Translations under genes and position numbers: made by a program
Assembly: GCA_030267965.1 (NCBI GenBank)
Contig: BRYA01000285.1
Location: forward strand, 7,077-48,025
Length of the DNA stretch: 40,949 nt
Reading direction: 5' to 3'
DNA from: Triparma columacea
Lineage: Eukaryota > Sar > Bolidophyceae > Parmales > Triparmaceae
In this document: in pieces, positions 2,528-23,031 of the stretch
Position numbering within the stretch: position 1 is the first letter of the stretch
How the letters are laid out: the number at the start of each line of letters is the position of its first letter
Notes under the pieces: generated by a model
The model's input: only the letters and a program-made list of their open reading frames with translations
Database searches by the model: none
Told to the model about the DNA's origin: nothing

Positions 2528-5500
2528 TCACCATTGTCCCATCTGCTTCATCATCTTGTCTTGCTTCGATTCCCCTTTGTCTTTGGGATCTCTCCTCTTC
2601 CCTGCAGGTTGCATGGTGACCCTATCAAATAGATACCTACAAAACTTTGCACCTTCGGGGAGGTCCCCCATGAGTTTTCTCTTCTTGTACTCGTCTCTCT
2701 CGCAGCACAGTGCATAACAACTTCCCTTCAAATCTTCCAGCCTCAACCACGAAACTTCGCTCTCCTGGAAAAGTTCGTTATCCCTATCAACGGCATCTGA
2801 GCCGAACTTTGCCCAGTCAGTGAAACCCATATTTTTCATGTCGTTATATGTGTACATTGTGCAGACTGCGGCAAAGTTGTGGCCAAGGGTGTCAACGCAT
2901 AGGGCCTTCAGCTGGGCGTACATGAGTTTTTTGTGTCCTGACCTTGGATAGATCAAAGGGCCTCTTTCGGACTCAGATACGCTGAACGTTAGTGCCACCT
3001 TGTTCTTGTTGACGTCTGTGATGACCGCCTTTGCTGACTGATAAAACTTGATTGGTGGCACTGGGCCCTTAGCGGCAATGACGTCGAGGCATATCGGGCA
3101 CTTCACGTTGCAGGGGGCGTGGTGGGGGCAGAGCAGGGTGGGAACCCCCTTGGGGGGGGGGAAGGGTGGCACGAGCCTGCGATGAGCGAAGTGGTGCGTT
3201 AAGAAGCGAAGAATTGTTAAGATAAATTATGAGATATGGGTGCGTCTTGCATGGATTATGAACTGTCTTAGCTAACTACCTCCAAGACTTGCTTTGCTGC
3301 TCCCCTTCTTATCATTATCGCCAACGTCCTTGCCCATCGCTTCGCTCCGTCGGCCATCGCTTCGCTCCTCCCTCGCCTCCCTAGCCTCACCTGAAGTTCC
3401 CGTAGAATTCGACGCTGAGAGCCACCTTCTTGTTGTGCTTGTCGATGAACGTCTTCACCTGGCCCTTGCTGTGCCCCATGAGCATGTGCCTCTTGACTTG
3501 TTCAGGGTTGGGGTAAGTTTTGTTGCAGCCGTCAATGGGACAGACGTAAGGGGCGGCGTTGCCTTCGATCTTGTTGAAGGGGTGTCTCTTCCATGGAATG
3601 TCTTTAGGGAAGACTGAAAGCAGGTACTGGTCGGTCATTGGAGTCGCGACTCCAAGTCTTGTCCTCAGTTCGTGCTGCTTCTGGTGCTGCTTGCAGCTCT
3701 GTTGGCTCATGAAAACTTGTCCGCAACCGGGGTGCCCGCATATGAAGCCCTTGACGGTTCTTTGTGGTTGGGCTATGATGTCGTCGGGGACGGGCCTTGG
3801 AAGTTTCTTGAGGATGTGCCCCGACTTGAAGAGATTTTGCATGGTCATTGGCCTCAAGTCAGACTCGCTTCCCCTCCTTATGAGCTTCTTGGGGAAGTTG
3901 GTGTTCATTGCATCGGTTGTTTCGTCATAATCGAGAGAAAGAGTAAAATAATCCCTCAGGGTCATCTTCCTCATCTCGTCAGTAACGTTGAACTGAGAAG
4001 AGAGACTTTCCCCTCCTGAGGATACCTTTGATCTCCTGCTCGCAACCGAAGCTATTGATCCTCCGCCATGCTTGAATGAATCATTAGATGAGACGTTAGA
4101 CAGCATGCTCGCGGTCTCGATTGACATGTCGCTATCCAAATTATACTCGTCGCCGAACTGCGATGAGCGAAGCAAATCGTGAAAAGGGTTAGGACAACTT
4201 GAATGCAGGTACGAGTGCATCATATCATACAATTATTGTCGTCGTCGTCAATGCTGAGATCTCGTCGCTTCGCTCCTCAATCAGCCTCACCTGTGTGCTG
4301 GTGTCATCCCCACGCTGCTCGATCCTGAGCTGCTTCTCGGCGACAAGAACGTTCAGGGTTTTGGATTTTACAGAGGCGGCGTAGGTCTTGCGCTGTTCCT
4401 TCTCTGTCATTGGGTTGGAAATGAACGACCTATCCTCGAGCTTCACTCCCATGTTGATTGGAAGTCGGTGCTCCCTTGAGGTTGCTGGGGGCTCACTTGC
4501 CTTCATTTTCTCAATGACGTGCTTCTTGAACCTCTTGGCATTCTTCTCTTCGTCATCGTCGACTGTCTTGGCCGTCGCTTTGGTGCCACTGGCCCTGTCG
4601 TGGAACCCTAGCTTCCTCAGACCCTCCTCGAATAGCTTGGCCCTCTTGGGATTCGGCAGCATGGCTGACTCGATCTTCTCCCTTCTCGACTCAGAGATTG
4701 GCAGGCGCTTGTTTAGTTTACCCAGGCGGAGGTCCTTGCACAGCTTCCTCCAGTGACGCTCGAGGAAGACAATGAAGTTGAAGCAGAAATTCACAAACGC
4801 AACGTCATCCTCGATGAGCTTCAACTCCTCATCCCTCACTTTGTTGAAAATGTGAAGATAGAGGTCGACCGCTTTCGTCGTTAGACGGAGCTCGCCGTCG
4901 CTGATCAACGGGATTGGGTTGGTAATCTTGAACCCCTTCTCCAGCTCGGCCTGGCTCTGCTCCTTTTTGAGGAAGGTGTCGTTGGCGTAGCTAATCAGGT
5001 GGTGCTCGTGGTGGACCATTTTGACACTGCGAGGATGAGAGTTGGGGTTAGCTTAGCTCATTTCGCTGCGTTTTTAAGCCTTACAAGCCGTATTTTTTTC
5101 TCACCTTTCTGTGTAGCTTGGGGCGTGTTGGCTCTTGACCATATGGTGCAAGTCCTCGTACTGGTGGTGCTTGATGCTGTGGAAGTGCTGGTCGCGATTT
5201 GGGAGGGCCGAAGTGTGCTTTACGAGGTGGTCGTGATCCTGACGATCAACCAAAAGTGAAGTGTGCGGTAAGGTGGAATCGATAATTTCTTGGGTTCTCG
5301 CCCTCTGCCTGGCGTGGGTTTCCTCGTACATGGAGCCATTGGAGGACGTTGGAGAGTAGGGCCCGTCGTCATCTTTCTTATCTTCGTCGGAATGGGCGAA
5401 GGAGAACTTGGCAGAGCGGGAGAGGGAGGACTTTGACATTTTGAGGGGGGGGGGCTTGCCGTTGAGGATCTTCTTCATTGTGGGGGGGGGGGCTGTTGAT

Positions 5501-8500
5501 GATGCTGTTGGCTGCAAGGGATCGGCTCCAAAGAAGGTGTTCACGTTTGCAGATGCAGGTGCAGTTGCAGTTGCAGTTGCAGCAGTACCACCTACAACCG
5601 CCGATGGGTCCGCCTTCTTCACCCTCGTCATTTCCTTCTCGATCTGATACCTCGTCAAGTTGAGGACTTCGCCGAGCTCCATCCCTCCGCCTGCCCTCGC
5701 AGGCTTCTCCAGATCCGGCTTTTTCTCCTTCTTGAAGATGACATCCATCTGAGCCTTGGAGAGAACACCGTTGGCGTACTCTTCGTCAAGGTTGGGCTCC
5801 GGGATCATTTCGTGGGCAGACACGTAGTGGCCGCACTTGCAAACGTTAGGGGATGCGAGCTGTGGGTCGAAGCGGGAACAAAGGACCATGCCGTGCTTGA
5901 CGCACTGACCAAAAGAGATGCAGTCAGCGCAGATAAGTCTGCCGTGGATTGCGCAGGGCTTCTCGTGGCGAGAAGCGAAGCGAAGGAACCGGTAGTAATC
6001 GACCCACCCATCGTTGTGGTGGTCGAAACGTTTGACAAGGGCTCCAGACTCTGACTTGAGGAGCGGACAGCCAGCCGAGTCCCACATATCCTGAAGGGCG
6101 CTAGCAAAGTCCATCCTCGAAACCTGACCGCACGCATCGGGGTCGTACTTTCGGAAGAATTGCTCTCCAGGCTGTTCCTCGGAGGTTGAGGTAGCAATCG
6201 ATGCTCCTGGGTTCAGGGCCAGGGCTTCGAGCTGCGACGGCGACGGCGAGCGAAGCGAGCCGTGGGGGGGTTTAAATGAGTGGGTGGTGTTAAGGGGTGT
6301 CGTCGTCGCTGTGGATCGCGCAGTTGATATGATAAACACATGTGATAGTTTTTCATTATATTTGTAGCTCATTCTCACCTCTTCCTTCATTATGGCGTCC
6401 TCTTTTAGCTTGACAAAGTATTCGCTCTTCTCCGCCATGGTCATGCGTCTCAACTCGCTCGGATTGATTTGGTAAGACTTGGAGCCATAGAAGGTCCTAG
6501 GCAAGAGGGTGTCGAAGGCGTGCTTGGGGAGTGTTGGCGCGAGCCAATCCCAAAACATCTGGATGGACTTGCGTTCGTGGTAAACGACCATCTTAGCAAC
6601 AAACATGAGGGCAAACCGCTGTATCGTGAGCGCTGCCGCGTTCCATGTGATTCTTCGGTGGTTGACGTAGCTTATGGCAAGCCTCCGTCGCACCGCAGAC
6701 TGAACGACCGTTGCACAGGCATGCTCCCACATTGTCACGCGGTAGAGGTGGTCGAAGCGCCTGCGACCTGTGACGAGCGAAGCGAGTTTGACGAGCGAAG
6801 CGAGTGTGACGAGCGAAGCGAGGAGCGTAAGGGGTAAGAATTTGAGCTCTCCTCGTCGCACCCCTGCTCTGCTAATACTCTGCTTTTCTCACCTATCCTC
6901 CCCCTGTAACGCTTCTGGAGGATAAGGGAGGCCCAGATCTCCTTCTTGACCTGTGCTCGTCTTTGGCGCACCCTCAAACGGGTGACAAAACCCTTGGCGT
7001 AACGCTGAAGGGTGAGATGACCCCACTCCTCGTGCTCGTGCTCGTGCCTGACTTCGAGAGTCGACTTGACTGCAAACATGAGCGCTGATGCAACGGCCCG
7101 GAGACCTCCGCGCTGGAGCACGAGGGCGGCTTTCTTCCTTTTGACCTTCTTCCTGGCGAGCAGTCCCCTGGTAAGACGTATCACAAGATTCACCGCATTA
7201 ACTGTGTTCTTCTTGATCTCCTCGACCTGTGACGCGAGTGTGACGAGCGAAGCGAGGAGCGTAAGGGGTAAGAATTTGAGCTCTCCTCGTCGCACCCCTG
7301 CTCTGCTAATGCTCTGCTAATACTCTGCTTTTCTCACCTCCTCCTTCTGAATGTACCTCCGGGCGTTGCACTGAATTCTTATGGCGGCCCGGTGCCTTTT
7401 GAGAGCAAGGCGCTGTTTGAACTTTACTTCCCTAAGACATTGGCTCTTGTACATTCGGTAATTCTTCTGGATCCTTGTTGCAGCGGAATCCCCCTGTGTG
7501 GTAACCTGAACATTGTGTCGCCTGGCTTGAGCGTACTTTCTCAGCTTCTGCTTCCAATTCTTAGGCTTCAAGGGGGATGTGTAGATAGCGGGAGGGTCCA
7601 TCATCTCGGGTCCCATGCCGTGAGGGCGAAGGGGGTGTGTCAGTTGCTGCGATGAGCGAAGCGAAGCGACGAGCGAAGCGACGAGCGAAGCGACGAGCGA
7701 AGCGAGGAGCGTAAGGGGTAAGAATTTGAGCTCTCCTCGTCGCCCCCCTGCTCTGCTACTACTCTGCTTTTCTACATCGTGATTCGCATTTTATTTTGCC
7801 CATTCTCACCTCCTCGATGGTAATGATCTTCTCCTCATCCTTGGTCTTCTTCTCCATTCCAGGGTAGGGCAGGAGCATCTTCTTCGGGGGGTGGCCAAAC
7901 TTGGACACGTAGTGGGCCACACAGAGACCGTGCTCGTTTGGCATTGTAATTCGCTTCTTGCTGGCGTCCGAATCCTTGTGTACCATACAGCATTCCTCCA
8001 AGTGCCATCCGCACTGCCTACAAAGGGCCTTGGTTTCTGGGTTCCTGAACACTTTGTTGTTACAGCTAAGGCCGCGCTCCGCAATGATATGCCTGTTGGG
8101 CTTCCAATCGCAAATGGAGTTCTCGCTGAGGGCCTCGGTCGATGCATCGGTTCCGAAGCCACCAACCAGCTTGGCCTGGTTGGCTACATTCCGCGCTGCC
8201 CTGGCAACGCCAGGAATGCGGAACTTTGGGAGAGTAGGAGGGGGGCGTTTAACCTTCTGAACAAAACATTCGTTACAGAGAGCGAACTCGTTGGGCTGAG
8301 TTTGCGACGAGCGAAGCGAGGAGCGAAGCGAAGCGACGAGCGAAGCGAGGAGCGAAGCGAAGCGACGAGCGAAGCGAGGAGCGAAAGGGGTAAGAACTTG
8401 AGCTCAGCGAGGAGCAAAGGGGCAAGAATTTGAGCTCAGCGAGGAGCAAAGGACAAGAATTTGAGCTCTCCTCGTCGCCCCCCTTTTCTCACCTCCTTAA

Positions 8501-12693: not shown

Positions 12694-12791
12694 GGTGTAG
12701 GGAGCAGGGAAAGGGTTAGAAGGGGGGACCGCGCGCGCGACCACGAAAACAAAAGCCAAAAAAAAAGCAATACGCTAAGGAGCAAAAAAAT

Positions 12792-12992
12792 TAGCACCGG
12801 TTAGTTTCGATCTAACGACCTTTGGGTTATGGGCCTGAAGGGAGAAGAAAGAAGGTAAGCAAGGGTGGAAGGGCATGCATGGGGGGGTCATTAACTTACC
12901 CAACACGCTGCCTCTCTATATAGGATGATGGAGGTAAGTATGGGGGGAAGGGGAAAGGAAAGATGGGTCATTAACTTACGCGCCACGGTGCT
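12792..12992 (-). tRNA. Initiator tRNA-Met(CAT) split by two GT-AG introns
   Basis: Three exons: 12980-12992 (AGCACCGTGGCGC), 12900-12915 (AGAGGCAGCGTGTTGG) and 12792-12834. Joined they give 72 nt: acceptor stem AGCACCG/CGGTGCT with A1-T72 and A73; D stem GCGC/GCGT; anticodon stem TTGGG/CCCAA with loop CCCATAA (anticodon CAT); variable AGGTC; T stem GTTAG/CTAAC with loop ATCGAAA. A1-T72, three G-C pairs closing the anticodon stem, and A54/A60 are hallmarks of eukaryotic initiator tRNA. A run of seven T follows A73, as expected for RNA polymerase III termination. Intron 1 (12916-12979, 64 nt) lies after position 13, inside the A box. Intron 2 (12835-12899, 65 nt) lies between positions 30 and 31. 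Neither is at the canonical 37/38 site. Splicing is inferred from the perfect fold of the joined exons. Confidence 0.85.
12835..12979 (-). mobile_element. Two sibling introns within the initiator tRNA
   Basis: Both introns begin with GTAAGTTAATGACCC, carry CTTACC about 20 bases before the 3' end (branch-point-like), have pyrimidine-rich 3' parts and end in AG (TATATAG and CTTCAG). At 64 and 65 nt with matching layout they look like two insertions of one element. The span includes the 16-nt middle exon at 12900-12915. Confidence 0.75.
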
Positions 12993-13197
12993 GCTAGAGA
13001 AAGACCTCTATTTCGTAAAAAGTTGATTTTTTGCTAATATTTCTACAAAACCTTCTGCTTTTCAGGCGTGGAGGGGGGACAAAATTTTGGAGAAATATGA
13101 AATGGTTCATTCTGGATTAGCGTGAAATAATAAGCAATTTGATGTACATCGAATTCTGAATAATTGCTTATAGCCGCCGCATTACTGTATTGTTCGT
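12993..13197. other. Spacer between tRNA and ankyrin-MYND gene
   Basis: AT-richer sequence with no ORF structure. Homology between the two tRNA-containing blocks stops exactly at the tRNA 5' end: downstream of 12992 there is no match to the sequence after 19574. Confidence 0.6.
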
Positions 13198-19154: not shown

Positions 19155-19374
19155 TTCTGCTGTGATTTGTTTGGGCAGATGTTCGAGATGCTCAGAATGA
19201 GGCCAATAAAGAACGAATTTCTTCTCAAAAGTTGAGCTTTAGCTTGCTAGAATACTCAAATTCTTCTGTGCTTAAGGGTGTAGGGAGCAGGGAAAGGGTT
19301 AGAAGGGGGGACCGCGCGCGCGACCACGAAAACAAAAGCCAAAAAAAAAGCAATACGCTAAGGAGCAAAAAAAT

Positions 19375-19574
19375 TAGCACCGGTTAGTTTCGATCTAACG
19401 ACCTTTGGGTTATGGGCCCACTGTAGAGAAGAAAGAAGGGTAAGCAAGGGTGGAAGGGCATGCATGGGTGGGGCATTTAACTTACACACGCTGCCTCTCT
19501 ATATGGGGATGATGGAGGTAAGTATGGGGGGAAGGGGAAAGGAAAGATGGGTCATTAACTTACGCCACGGTGCT
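19375..19574 (-). tRNA. Second intron-split initiator tRNA-Met, D stem two bases short
   Basis: Exons 19564-19574 (AGCACCGTGGC), 19486-19498 (AGAGGCAGCGTGT) and 19375-19420, with introns of 65 nt each (19499-19563 and 19421-19485). The joined product is 70 nt. It lacks the second GC of the D stem, so this copy may be non-functional. Intron 2 sits three bases earlier than in the other copy (after GTGT, before TGGGCCC), yet the joined sequence across that site is identical. The T run after A73 is kept. Confidence 0.6.
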
Positions 19575-19618
19575 GAGATAGGAAATAAATGTTCGAAAAA
19601 GGCAGAAATGTTTTAGGG

Positions 19619-19883
19619 TCGCAACAGTGTGCTTCCTTTTCTGTCCCCCCCTCGGGGGTTAGTTAATGGTGTTCTCCGCGTCCAGTTCCCCTGCTAGTCC
19701 CCTCCTTGTCCCCACCTGTCCCTTTCCGCCCTTCCTGAAGAGCTTCCTCTGCTTGCTCGCCATGAAGGCGTTCATGAGAATCGGGGACTTTGCCTTTATA
19801 AAGCTTGCGCTCTTCGGGGGCGCCTGCTGTACGATGTTCGAGCTCGTGTTGGCCTTGAAAACTTCCTTGACTTCAACAGGCAA
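19619..19883 (-). pseudogene. Duplicated 3' end of the downstream coiled-coil gene
   Basis: 19619-19871 is a direct repeat of 22783-23031. The translated part keeps frame to the stop and ends like the real gene (KSASFIKAKSPILMNAF, ELDAENTIN). Nothing upstream of the match belongs to that gene, so this is a fragment, not an expressed gene. Confidence 0.8.
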
Positions 19884-20391: not shown

Positions 20392-22643
20392 ATGCCAAAC
20401 ACAGCAGATTATGAGTTTGAGTTTGATGATGAGGATAACCCACTCTTAGCGAATTATTGAATGGAAGCGCCACGAAGAAGAAGAAGGGAAAGAAGTCGCC
20501 CAAGAAGAAGGTCAAGGACCCCAACGCCCCAAAGGCTCCAGTGTACTATGGAACAGACGAGATAGGGAGCTTCAGAGGCAATAGTGAACTCACAGAAGTG
20601 ACTTTTGTAGAAGGAGTGACGTCGATTGCCGATGAAACCTTCTGGGGATGCTCCTCCCTCACGGCCATCACCATCCCAGATGGAGTGACGAAGATTGGCA
20701 TTGGAGCCTTCCACAAATGCTCCTCCCTCACGGCCATCACAATCCCAGTTGGAGTGACAACGATTAGTAGAAGTACCTTTAACGGATGCTCCTCCCTCAC
20801 TGCCATCACCATCCCAGACGGAGTGACAACGATTGGCAGGTGCGCCTTCTACGCATGCTCCTCCCTCACGGCCATCACCATCCTAGATGGAGTGACAACG
20901 ATTGGCGAATACGCCTTCGACGGATGCTCCTCCCTCACGGCCATCACAATCCCGGACTCAGTGACGATGATTGGCCAACGCGCCTTCAAGGGATGCTCCT
21001 CCCTCGCGGCCATCACCATCCCGGACGGAGTGACAACAATTGACTATAGCGCCTTCAGTAGATGCTCCTCCCTCACGGCCATCACCATCCCGGACGGAGT
21101 GACGACGATTGGCGAACGCGCCTTCAGTAGATGCTCCTCCCTCACGGCCATCACCATCCCGGAGGGAGTGACAACGATTGGCGAACGCGCCTTCAGTAGA
21201 TGCTCCTCCCTCACTGCCATCACAATCCCGGACTCAGTGACAACGATTGGCAATCTCGCCTTCTACGAATGCTCCTCCCTCACGGCCATCACCATCCCGG
21301 ACGGAGTGACGACAATTTGCGAGGGCGCCTTCCAAGGATGCTCCTCCCTCACGGCCATTACCATCCCGGACGGACTAACGATGATTGGCGATAACGCTTT
21401 CTGGGGATGCTCCTCCCTCACGGCAATCATTATCCCGGACTTAGTGACGACAATTGGCAGTCATGCCTTTCAAGGATGCTCCTCCCTCGCAGCAATCACC
21501 ATCCCGGACTCAGTGACGATGATTGGCTATAGCGCCTTTAACAGATGCTCCTCCCTCACGGCCATCACAATCCCAGACGGAGTGACGATGATTGGCGAAT
21601 ATGCCTTCTTCTTATGCTCCTCCCTCACGGCCATCACAATCCCGGACGGAGTGACGACAATTAGCGAACACGCCTTCGAAGGTTGCTCCACCCTCGCAGC
21701 CATTGCCATCCCGGACTCAGTGACGATGATTGGCCCGGGTGCCTTCAGAGGATGCTCCTTCCTCACGGCCATCACCATCCCGGACGGAGTGACAACGATT
21801 GGCAAACACGCCTTCTACGAATGCTCCTCCCTCACGACCATCACAATCCCGGACTCAGTGACTACGATTGAGTATGGCGCCTTCGAAGGATGCTCCTCCC
21901 TCACGGCCATCACCATCCCGGACTCAGTGACGACGATTAACAGTCGAGCCTTCATTTATTGCTCCTCCCTCACGACCATCACAATCCCGGACGGAGTGAC
22001 GACAATTGGCTATGCCGCCTTCAGGTTTTGCTCCTCCCTCACGGCCATCACAATCCCAGATGGAGTGACGACAATTGGCGTTGGCGCCTTCGGTGGATGC
22101 TCCTCCCTCACGGCCATCACCATCCCGGACGGAGTGACAACGATTGACGAACAGACCTTCTGCGGATGCTCCTCTCTCACGGCCATCACCATCCCGGACT
22201 CAGTGACTACGATTGAGGATGGCGCCTTCAGAGGATGCTCCTCCCTCACGGCCATCACCATCCCGGACGGAGTAACGACGATTGGCGATGAAGCCTTCTA
22301 CGGATGCACCACCCTGACGAAACTCATTCTATCTCCTGCCGTTTCCATCGGTGAAGACTGCTTCTCGAACTGCACTGCCCTAATCGCTGCCGCTGCTTAT
22401 AAAAACATGCCAACCGTCTCTGACCTCCTCCATTACAGGTGGCGCCGCAACATCGCTGTGATGGAACGCGTCAACGCTCTCCTGTGCCTCAAGGGAACCT
22501 GGGATCACGTGGAGGATCCACCCAGGAGATCGGCTAGGAAGCGGAAACGAACGGACGGAGTTGAAGCACCAGCGCTAAGGGTAACTGAGGCACGTGAGAA
22601 GATACCGAAAGTATTGTGGAGAGTAATTCTGGAGTTTCTGTAA
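20392..22643 (+). CDS. BspA-type leucine-rich repeat protein (start uncertain, possible frameshift)
   Basis: The main frame runs from about 20439 to 22643 and begins with a lysine-rich segment (KKKKGKKSPKKKVKDPNAP). About 25 tandem 23-residue repeats of the form SLTAITIPDGVTTIGxxAFxxCS follow. It ends with a distinct C-terminal domain (DLLHYRWRRNIAVMERVNAL ... EKIPKVLWRVILEFL). This is the LRR_5/BspA class found in bacterial surface proteins and expanded in many protists. No signal peptide is seen. The main frame has no ATG near its start. An ATG at 20392-20394 opens an acidic 22-codon segment (MPNTADYEFEFDDEDNPLL) in another frame, ending in TGA at 20458, so a one-base frameshift near 20455 or a missed exon is likely. 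Function unknown. Confidence 0.7.
20640..22310 (+). repeat. 69-bp tandem array encoding the LRR repeats
   Basis: About 25 units of 69 bp, nearly identical at the DNA level around GGATGCTCCTCCCTCACGGC and ATCACCATCCCGGACGGAGT. The similarity at synonymous sites points to recent unit duplication or gene conversion. Apparent antisense ORFs over the array are a by-product. Confidence 0.9.
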
Positions 22644-22782
22644 ATCTTTGTTGTTGAATCGTTCAATTTTTCCACTGTTAAATGAATATAATTTTTCGAG
22701 AATTCAGCATCACACGTATAACAATACCTCTCCGCGAAATTTTAACCTTAATTATTGCCGAAAAAGAATAATATTTTTTAGT

Positions 22783-23031
22783 TCGCAACAGCGTGCTTCC
22801 TTTTCTGTCTCCCCTCGGGGGTTAGTTAATGGTGTTCTCCGCGTCCAGTTCCCCTGCTAGTCCCCTCCCCCCCACCTGTCCCTTTCCGCCCTTCCTGAAG
22901 AGCTTCCTCTGCTTGCTCGCCATGAATGCGTTCATGAGAATCGGGGACTTGGCCTTTATAAAGCTCGCGCTCTTCCCAGGCGCCTGCTGTACGATGTTCG
23001 AGCTCGTGTTGGCCTTGAAAACTTCCTTGAC
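22783..23031 (-). repeat. Parent copy of the 250-bp direct repeat flanking the LRR gene
   Basis: Covers the last part of the final exon and the 3' flank of the coiled-coil gene. Its direct repeat at 19619-19871 lies on the other side of the LRR gene. Confidence 0.85.

Follow-up and report, generated by a model that had tools for sequence, protein, structure and literature searches.

The window, by which we mean the whole stretch of 40,949 nucleotides analysed here, contains two copies of a gene for initiator tRNA-Met, A and B, each of which is split by two GT-AG introns (Table 1). Copy A lies on the minus strand from 12992 to 12792, and the sequence-only reading of this DNA had given its two introns with exact coordinates and letters. 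As that reading also proposed, removal of both introns leaves a complete 72-nt initiator tRNA-Met with A1-T72, TTGGG/CCCAA and the loop CCCATAA, together with the T loop ATCGAAA and a T7 run downstream. The position between 30 and 31 that it assigned to intron 2 is correct in standard numbering and corresponds to a position after nucleotide 29 by straight count along the product. As RNA, the spliced molecule has the hallmarks of a eukaryotic initiator tRNA-Met, namely A1-U72, the anticodon CAU, G-C pairs at the foot of the anticodon stem and the T loop AUCGAAA. ARAGORN calls spliced copy A a tRNA-Met(cat) and finds nothing in its genomic sequence, and none of 40 dinucleotide shuffles of copy A reached the score of the real gene. 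On unspliced sequence, neither Rfam (at the gathering threshold) nor ARAGORN reported a tRNA anywhere in the window.

The sequence-only reading did not report that the window holds another split copy, nor that the pattern extends across the genome, as described below. A search of the genome (37.85 Mb, 789 contigs) with the spliced initiator tRNA returned two loci, both split and both in the window, and an additional short match that is exon 2 of copy A itself; no intact initiator gene was found elsewhere in the assembly. In intron 2 of copy B, donor and acceptor are both shifted by 3 nt relative to copy A, and the joined exons are identical (GTGT/TGGG in B and GTGTTGG/G in A, the slash marking the junction). 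Such a slide with an unchanged product is the pattern that selection on the spliced product would leave. The two copies are identical over 105 nt from the last exon on (12694-12798 and 19277-19381). Upstream of copy B, the 5' flank (19597-19871) resembles 22761-23031. Copy B also has no upstream promoter word (6 mismatches), and it looks like a recombinant that lost its tRNA promoter. Because this word and two D-stem bases are missing, copy B is probably a decayed or decaying copy. Against decay, ARAGORN (in circular mode) still calls spliced copy B a tRNA-Met, and use of a weaker donor lying 4 nt further downstream would yield a foldable D arm. The earlier suggestion of a pseudogene invaded by introns thus suits copy B, which looks decayed, and not copy A.

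The window also holds protein-coding features. A protein joined from two exons finds its best match among named organisms in Triparma strigata, with 47% identity over its whole length, and also matches another member of the Parmales, scaly parma (73% over 15%); closer matches reach 98% over 54% and 94% over 47%. From these matches the source is likely an alga of the Parmales. At 20439-22643 (plus strand), an open frame of 734 residues carries BspA-type leucine-rich repeats (Pfam LRR_5, 1032 bits), with a repeat unit of 69 nt.

Table 1. Parts of the two initiator tRNA-Met copies in the window, and the further tRNA genes of the assembly split by GT-AG introns
Feature	Position	Strand	Remarks
Copy A, upstream promoter-like element TAGCAAAAAATCAACTTTTTACG	13014..13036	-	0 mismatches to TAGCAAAAAATC
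Copy A, exon 1 (nt 1-13)	12980..12992	-	13 nt
Copy A, intron 1	12916..12979	-	64 nt, GTAAGT...CTTACC...TAG
Copy A, exon 2 (nt 14-29)	12900..12915	-	16 nt
Copy A, intron 2	12835..12899	-	65 nt, GTAAGT...CTTACC...CAG
Copy A, exon 3 and discriminator A (12792)	12792..12834	-	43 nt
Copy A, T7 run	12784..12790	-	probable Pol III terminator
Copy B, whole	19375..19574	-	two introns as in copy A
Copy B, exon 1	19574-19564	-	11 nt, two D-stem bases fewer
Copy B, intron 1	19563-19499	-	
Copy B, exon 2	19498-19486	-	
Copy B, intron 2	19485-19421	-	slid 3 nt relative to copy A
Copy B, exon 3 with discriminator	19420-19375	-	
Arg-CCT, Gln-TTG, Lys-TTT, Trp-CCA			split by GT-AG intron
Thr-CGT			2 GT-AG introns
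Arg-TCT			2 GT-AG introns
Leu-CAA			GT-AG intron within acceptor stem, after nt 5
Leu-AAG			4 GT-AG introns, 6-nt exon between two of them
Leu-TAG			GT-AG intron in T loop
Thr-AGT			3 GT-AG introns
Ala-CGC			3 GT-AG introns
Arg-TCG			2 GT-AG introns
Phe-GAA			2 GT-AG introns and a canonical 37/38 intron

GT-AG introns in tRNA genes across the assembly

Thirteen further tRNA genes of this genome are split by GT-AG introns, which with copy A makes 26 introns in 14 genes. The introns measure 57-75 nt, number one to four per gene and are scattered over the cloverleaf, lying after nt 5 to 64. In total, 29 tRNA loci were met: the 14 split genes, 11 without introns (Lys-CTT twice, Ile-TAT, Thr-TGT, Arg-CCG four times, Ser-TGA, Leu-TAA and Leu-CAG), two with a canonical intron only (Pro-AGG and Val-TAC), copy B and a tentative elongator (eMet) locus. 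Many isotypes are absent from these 29 loci. The eMet locus (C485), with one GT-AG and one long canonical intron, was read by eye, gave no solution in the solver and is excluded from the intron counts. The four Arg-CCG copies are intact and have the same sequence (L005-L008, at C54:55009, C501:39898, C670:17051 and C670:17301); they have neither upstream word nor T run and are perhaps a mobile or dead tRNA-derived repeat.

The split genes were found through T arms with terminators and through a shared upstream word, followed by splicing in silico. A T-arm pattern with terminator and GC matched 16 places against 2 in the control. Looser T-arm patterns matched no more often than their controls (two of them judged from the first 100 places listed), one other showed a small excess (41 against 34), and all of these served as leads only; a poorly chosen pattern for what follows the terminator added one new place, where ARAGORN saw no tRNA. 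A T-stem score of at least 4.5 was reached by 18 of 98 candidates with T arm and terminator. Seven of these are intact, two have just a canonical intron, eight have GT-AG introns and one is the tentative eMet; the set included loci from the tRNA family search, which favours intact genes. That family search of the 38-Mb genome gave at least 14 matches, a lower bound since 63 of 675 candidates were scored. The upstream word, searched as CAAAAAATCN{1,3}VTTTT, occurs at 22 places in the genome, compared with 2 for the reversed pattern. Transfer RNA loci account for 12 of the 22; nine of them carry GT-AG introns, two are intact and one has a canonical intron. One further place is U3-like, and nine received no assignment. 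Neither this sample nor the T-arm sample was selected by intron content.

Several controls bear on the intron calls. After splicing, ARAGORN called all 14 split genes with the predicted isotype, the Trp product in this test still containing a likely 11-nt canonical intron; unspliced, it called none, and with its own intron option it called four, two of them with the predicted anticodon (Lys and Trp). When all 256 dinucleotide pairs were tried as intron ends on the loci with at most three introns, which omits Leu-AAG with its four, GT-AG solved 13 of 13 and the runner-up two. Since these loci had originally been solved with GT-AG, the weight of this test rests on the failure of the other pairs. 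When introns were slid at fixed length, GT-AG was among the best-scoring positions in 26 of 26, with 1 to 11 positions per intron falling within tolerance by structure alone. None of 560 shuffles over the 14 genes, which kept the first 5 and last 8 nt and dinucleotide-shuffled the remainder, reached the real score, and none reached 20. A scan of the window for GTRAG-CTNAC introns was uninformative (16 hits, compared with 19 when the sequence was reversed and 17 on average over ten shuffles), and a scan of viral contigs gave three matches, two of them near-identical, which were judged by eye to be unrelated.

The Trp and Phe genes deserve separate mention. A single locus was found for each, in both cases split, and no intact copy of either was found in the assembly. 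Initiator, Trp and Phe tRNAs have no synonymous stand-in, and therefore translation, within what the assembly contains, would need intron removal. The searches for intact copies covered these three tRNAs, in an assembly that may be incomplete.

Two of the introns are related across isotypes. The bodies of the Lys-TTT intron (L053, C69, after nt 24) and of the second Phe intron (L149, C760, after nt 26) align with a score of 46, compared with a maximum of 33 over all 325 pairs in 20 shuffled sets, which suggests that an intron has moved or been copied between tRNA genes. This is the one body pair common to different isotypes among the 26; the first intron is also common to Arg-TCT and Arg-TCG. 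A multi-copy introner origin is not supported for the initiator introns, as their 15-nt start occurs at three places in the genome, all of them in copies A and B.

Splicing signals and transcription signals

The tRNA introns carry basic signals of spliceosomal introns. The donor is GTRAG in 25 of 26 and the end AG in 26 of 26 (GT-AG having been required in the search). A YTNAY word lies 10-32 nt from the 3' end in all 26, compared with a shuffled mean of 16.1 and maximum of 22, and 19 of the 26 contain CTTAC, a word that shuffled introns show 2.0 times on average and at most 6 times. From the branch word to the AG, the pyrimidine fraction is 0.81. For a rough comparison with mRNA introns, we used 25 candidates from a coding-score scan of 236 kb, a noisy set that includes false positives: none of its 25 introns has CTTAC, 10 have some YTNAY word and 4 have CTAAC, which is present in 3 of the 26 tRNA introns. 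Within the window, two introns that join protein-gene exons start with GTGAG, end with GCAG and have a TAAC word before the end. The tRNA introns therefore seem to share the basic spliceosomal signals, yet to form a shorter and more uniform class with its own branch word. Two cases would be awkward for a spliceosome, the 6-nt exon of Leu-AAG and the Leu-CAA intron after nt 5.

Among the mRNA introns of the window, those at 3177-3390 and 4158-4290 (minus strand) have GAGCGAAGCGA-like starts and TTCGCTCATCGCAG ends. They match a repeated window word, GACGAGCGAAGCGAG, which recurs near 6790, 7224, 7655, 8327, 9487, 12156 and 15881, and possibly belong to an introner-like family of protein-gene introns that differs from those of the tRNA genes.

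How these genes are transcribed is suggested by their flanks. The word TAGCAAAAAATC, with at most two mismatches, stands upstream of 15 of the 18 genes examined, compared with 0.9% of shuffled upstream sequences, and mostly ends 17-40 nt before nucleotide 1; intact tRNA genes are preceded by it as well, and the three genes without it are Leu-AAG, Pro-AGG and copy B. Thirteen of the 14 split genes keep it, and in all 14 a run of seven to nine T starts 1-15 nt past the discriminator. Together, these two features suggest that Pol III transcribes the genes from a promoter element lying outside and upstream of them, an arrangement in which a split A box would be tolerable. It counts against spliceosomal removal that the cap and the polymerase tail, the usual aids to splicing, are missing from Pol III transcripts. 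The upstream word also precedes a U3-like snoRNA gene (L138, C124, ~10852), which scores 29.4 bits where the Rfam cut-off is 80, and a stretch ended by a T run (L140, C145, ~18387) with no Rfam match up to E 0.1, a candidate for a novel Pol III RNA.

Machineries that could remove the introns

The sequence-only reading had offered either spliceosomal processing of this precursor or some unusual mode of transcription and processing, and our tests favour the former. The assembly holds the split genes, their introns with recurrent motifs and the cloverleaves that splicing restores, and no intact initiator, Trp or Phe copy was found in it. On this evidence, we consider it highly probable that the introns of the initiator tRNA gene and of the 13 further tRNA genes are removed by the spliceosome.

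One alternative is that these are ectopic tRNA-endonuclease introns, as in Cyanidioschyzon merolae and cryptophyte nucleomorphs, with GT-AG ends that are incidental. Two papers (PMC3978253, PMC4090602) describe ectopic and multiple introns of endonuclease type in algal tRNA genes, as well as many Guillardia tRNA introns that form no defined bulge-helix-bulge (BHB), and the canonical introns of the present genome imply that the endonuclease should be present. Yet at the GT-AG cuts a 4-bp BHB central helix was found in 0 of 26 introns, and at least three central pairs in two, one of which (Leu-AAG after nt 54) also has a 2-bp outer helix. In contrast, the canonical introns of Pro, Val, Phe and Trp (the last being likely) have 4, 3, 3 and 3 central pairs, the first three with an outer helix, and when offered five cut positions they did best at the unshifted one. 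None of the 26 GT-AG introns lies at the canonical position 37/38. The missing BHB at the cuts argues against endonuclease introns, less strongly if the true cuts lie elsewhere: with shifts of up to 2 nt, 14 of 26 reach three of four pairs and two reach four, one of these with an outer helix. Moreover, the uniform GTRAGT, CTTACC and AG are not needed by endonuclease introns, and we regard this explanation as very improbable.

Alternatively, the split genes could be intron-invaded pseudogenes whose intact, expressed counterparts exist and are missing from the assembly. The division of the genome into 789 contigs, the isotypes missing from the 29 loci, and the state of copy B, without two D-stem bases and the promoter word, all lend themselves to such a view. 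It sits poorly with spliced cloverleaves that are intact in 14 of 14, with the retention of the upstream word and T runs, and with the negative search of the assembly for intact initiator, Trp and Phe copies, and it is in our opinion most unlikely. A different proposal is that a third, dedicated machinery recognises a hairpin between the donor (GTAAG) and CTTAC. These two words are exact complements, and in 22 of 26 introns nucleotides 1-5 of the donor are able to pair with the branch-like word. In the fold predicted for the copy A precursor, intron 1 forms a donor-CTTAC helix, and the candidate mRNA introns have no CTTAC. However, the seven GTGAGT donors are not accompanied by CTCAC, so that there is no covariation in support of a hairpin; the complementarity follows from the donor consensus combined with a YTNAC branch, and the word sits at the place expected of a branch site. 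A dedicated hairpin-recognising machinery is thus very unlikely, and removal by the spliceosome is the reading that we adopt.

Known parallels and the predicted route of tRNA maturation

Related arrangements are known from other systems. Nuclear tRNA genes of C. merolae and nucleomorph tRNA genes of Guillardia theta similarly have multiple introns at non-canonical positions (PMC3978253, PMC4090602). The C. merolae introns are assigned there to the BHB class that the tRNA endonuclease removes, and the Guillardia insertions are 3-24 nt, whereas the introns here measure 57-75 nt and carry a donor, a branch-like word and an acceptor. The canonical 37/38 introns occur in the same genome and, in Phe, alongside GT-AG introns, yet differ in position, in having no GT-AG signals and in their BHB helix of 3-4 pairs. 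Introners, as portrayed in a survey (PMC9860276), are likewise a case of mass spliceosomal intron gain in single-celled eukaryotes, and the shared Lys and Phe body recalls them; they differ in being near-identical copies, while the initiator intron starts are confined to copies A and B. The main text of that survey does not contain the word tRNA, and the paper on Parmales genomes (PMC10328945) does not contain the word intron. The literature searched, which lay mostly outside subscription papers and included PMC12730881, PMC11782384, PMC3978253, PMC4090602, PMC4033280, PMC2784804 and PMC13149111, yielded no account of tRNA genes with introns of spliceosomal type; the reviews describe endonuclease introns and permuted and split tRNA genes.

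The U6 snRNA genes of fission yeast and other fungi carry mRNA-type introns. They resemble the present genes in having a spliceosomal-type intron in a Pol III transcript (Pol III being predicted here), and differ in that U6 is itself part of the spliceosome, whereas here many tRNA genes are affected.

Our model predicts that Pol III starts from the upstream element, tolerates the split internal A box by virtue of this upstream start, and stops at the T run. The major spliceosome would then recognise the GTRAGT donors, the CTTACC branch word and the pyrimidine-rich stretch before the AG, and would remove one to four introns of ~65 nt from each tRNA precursor. The ordinary 37/38 introns, in the Phe gene and probably the Trp gene too, would be left to the tRNA endonuclease. 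Since both initiator copies that were found and 13 other tRNA genes are split, the cell would probably have to make these tRNAs with its mRNA-splicing machine.

More broadly, we think it likely that the spliceosome is an essential tRNA-maturing machine in this Parmales-like alga. A uniform class of introns (GTRAGT, CTTACC, ~65 nt) would have spread through a large part of the tRNA set, with as many as four in one gene. Initiation and the decoding of Trp and Phe codons would then require the spliceosome to act on Pol III transcripts, and on the Phe precursor it would work beside the tRNA endonuclease. Splicing of tRNA and splicing of mRNA are taught as separate systems. If our reading is true, it accounts for the few tRNA genes that tRNA finders see in this genome, the spliceosome can act on Pol III transcripts at scale, and essential tRNAs with spliceosomal-type introns join tRNA and mRNA splicing.
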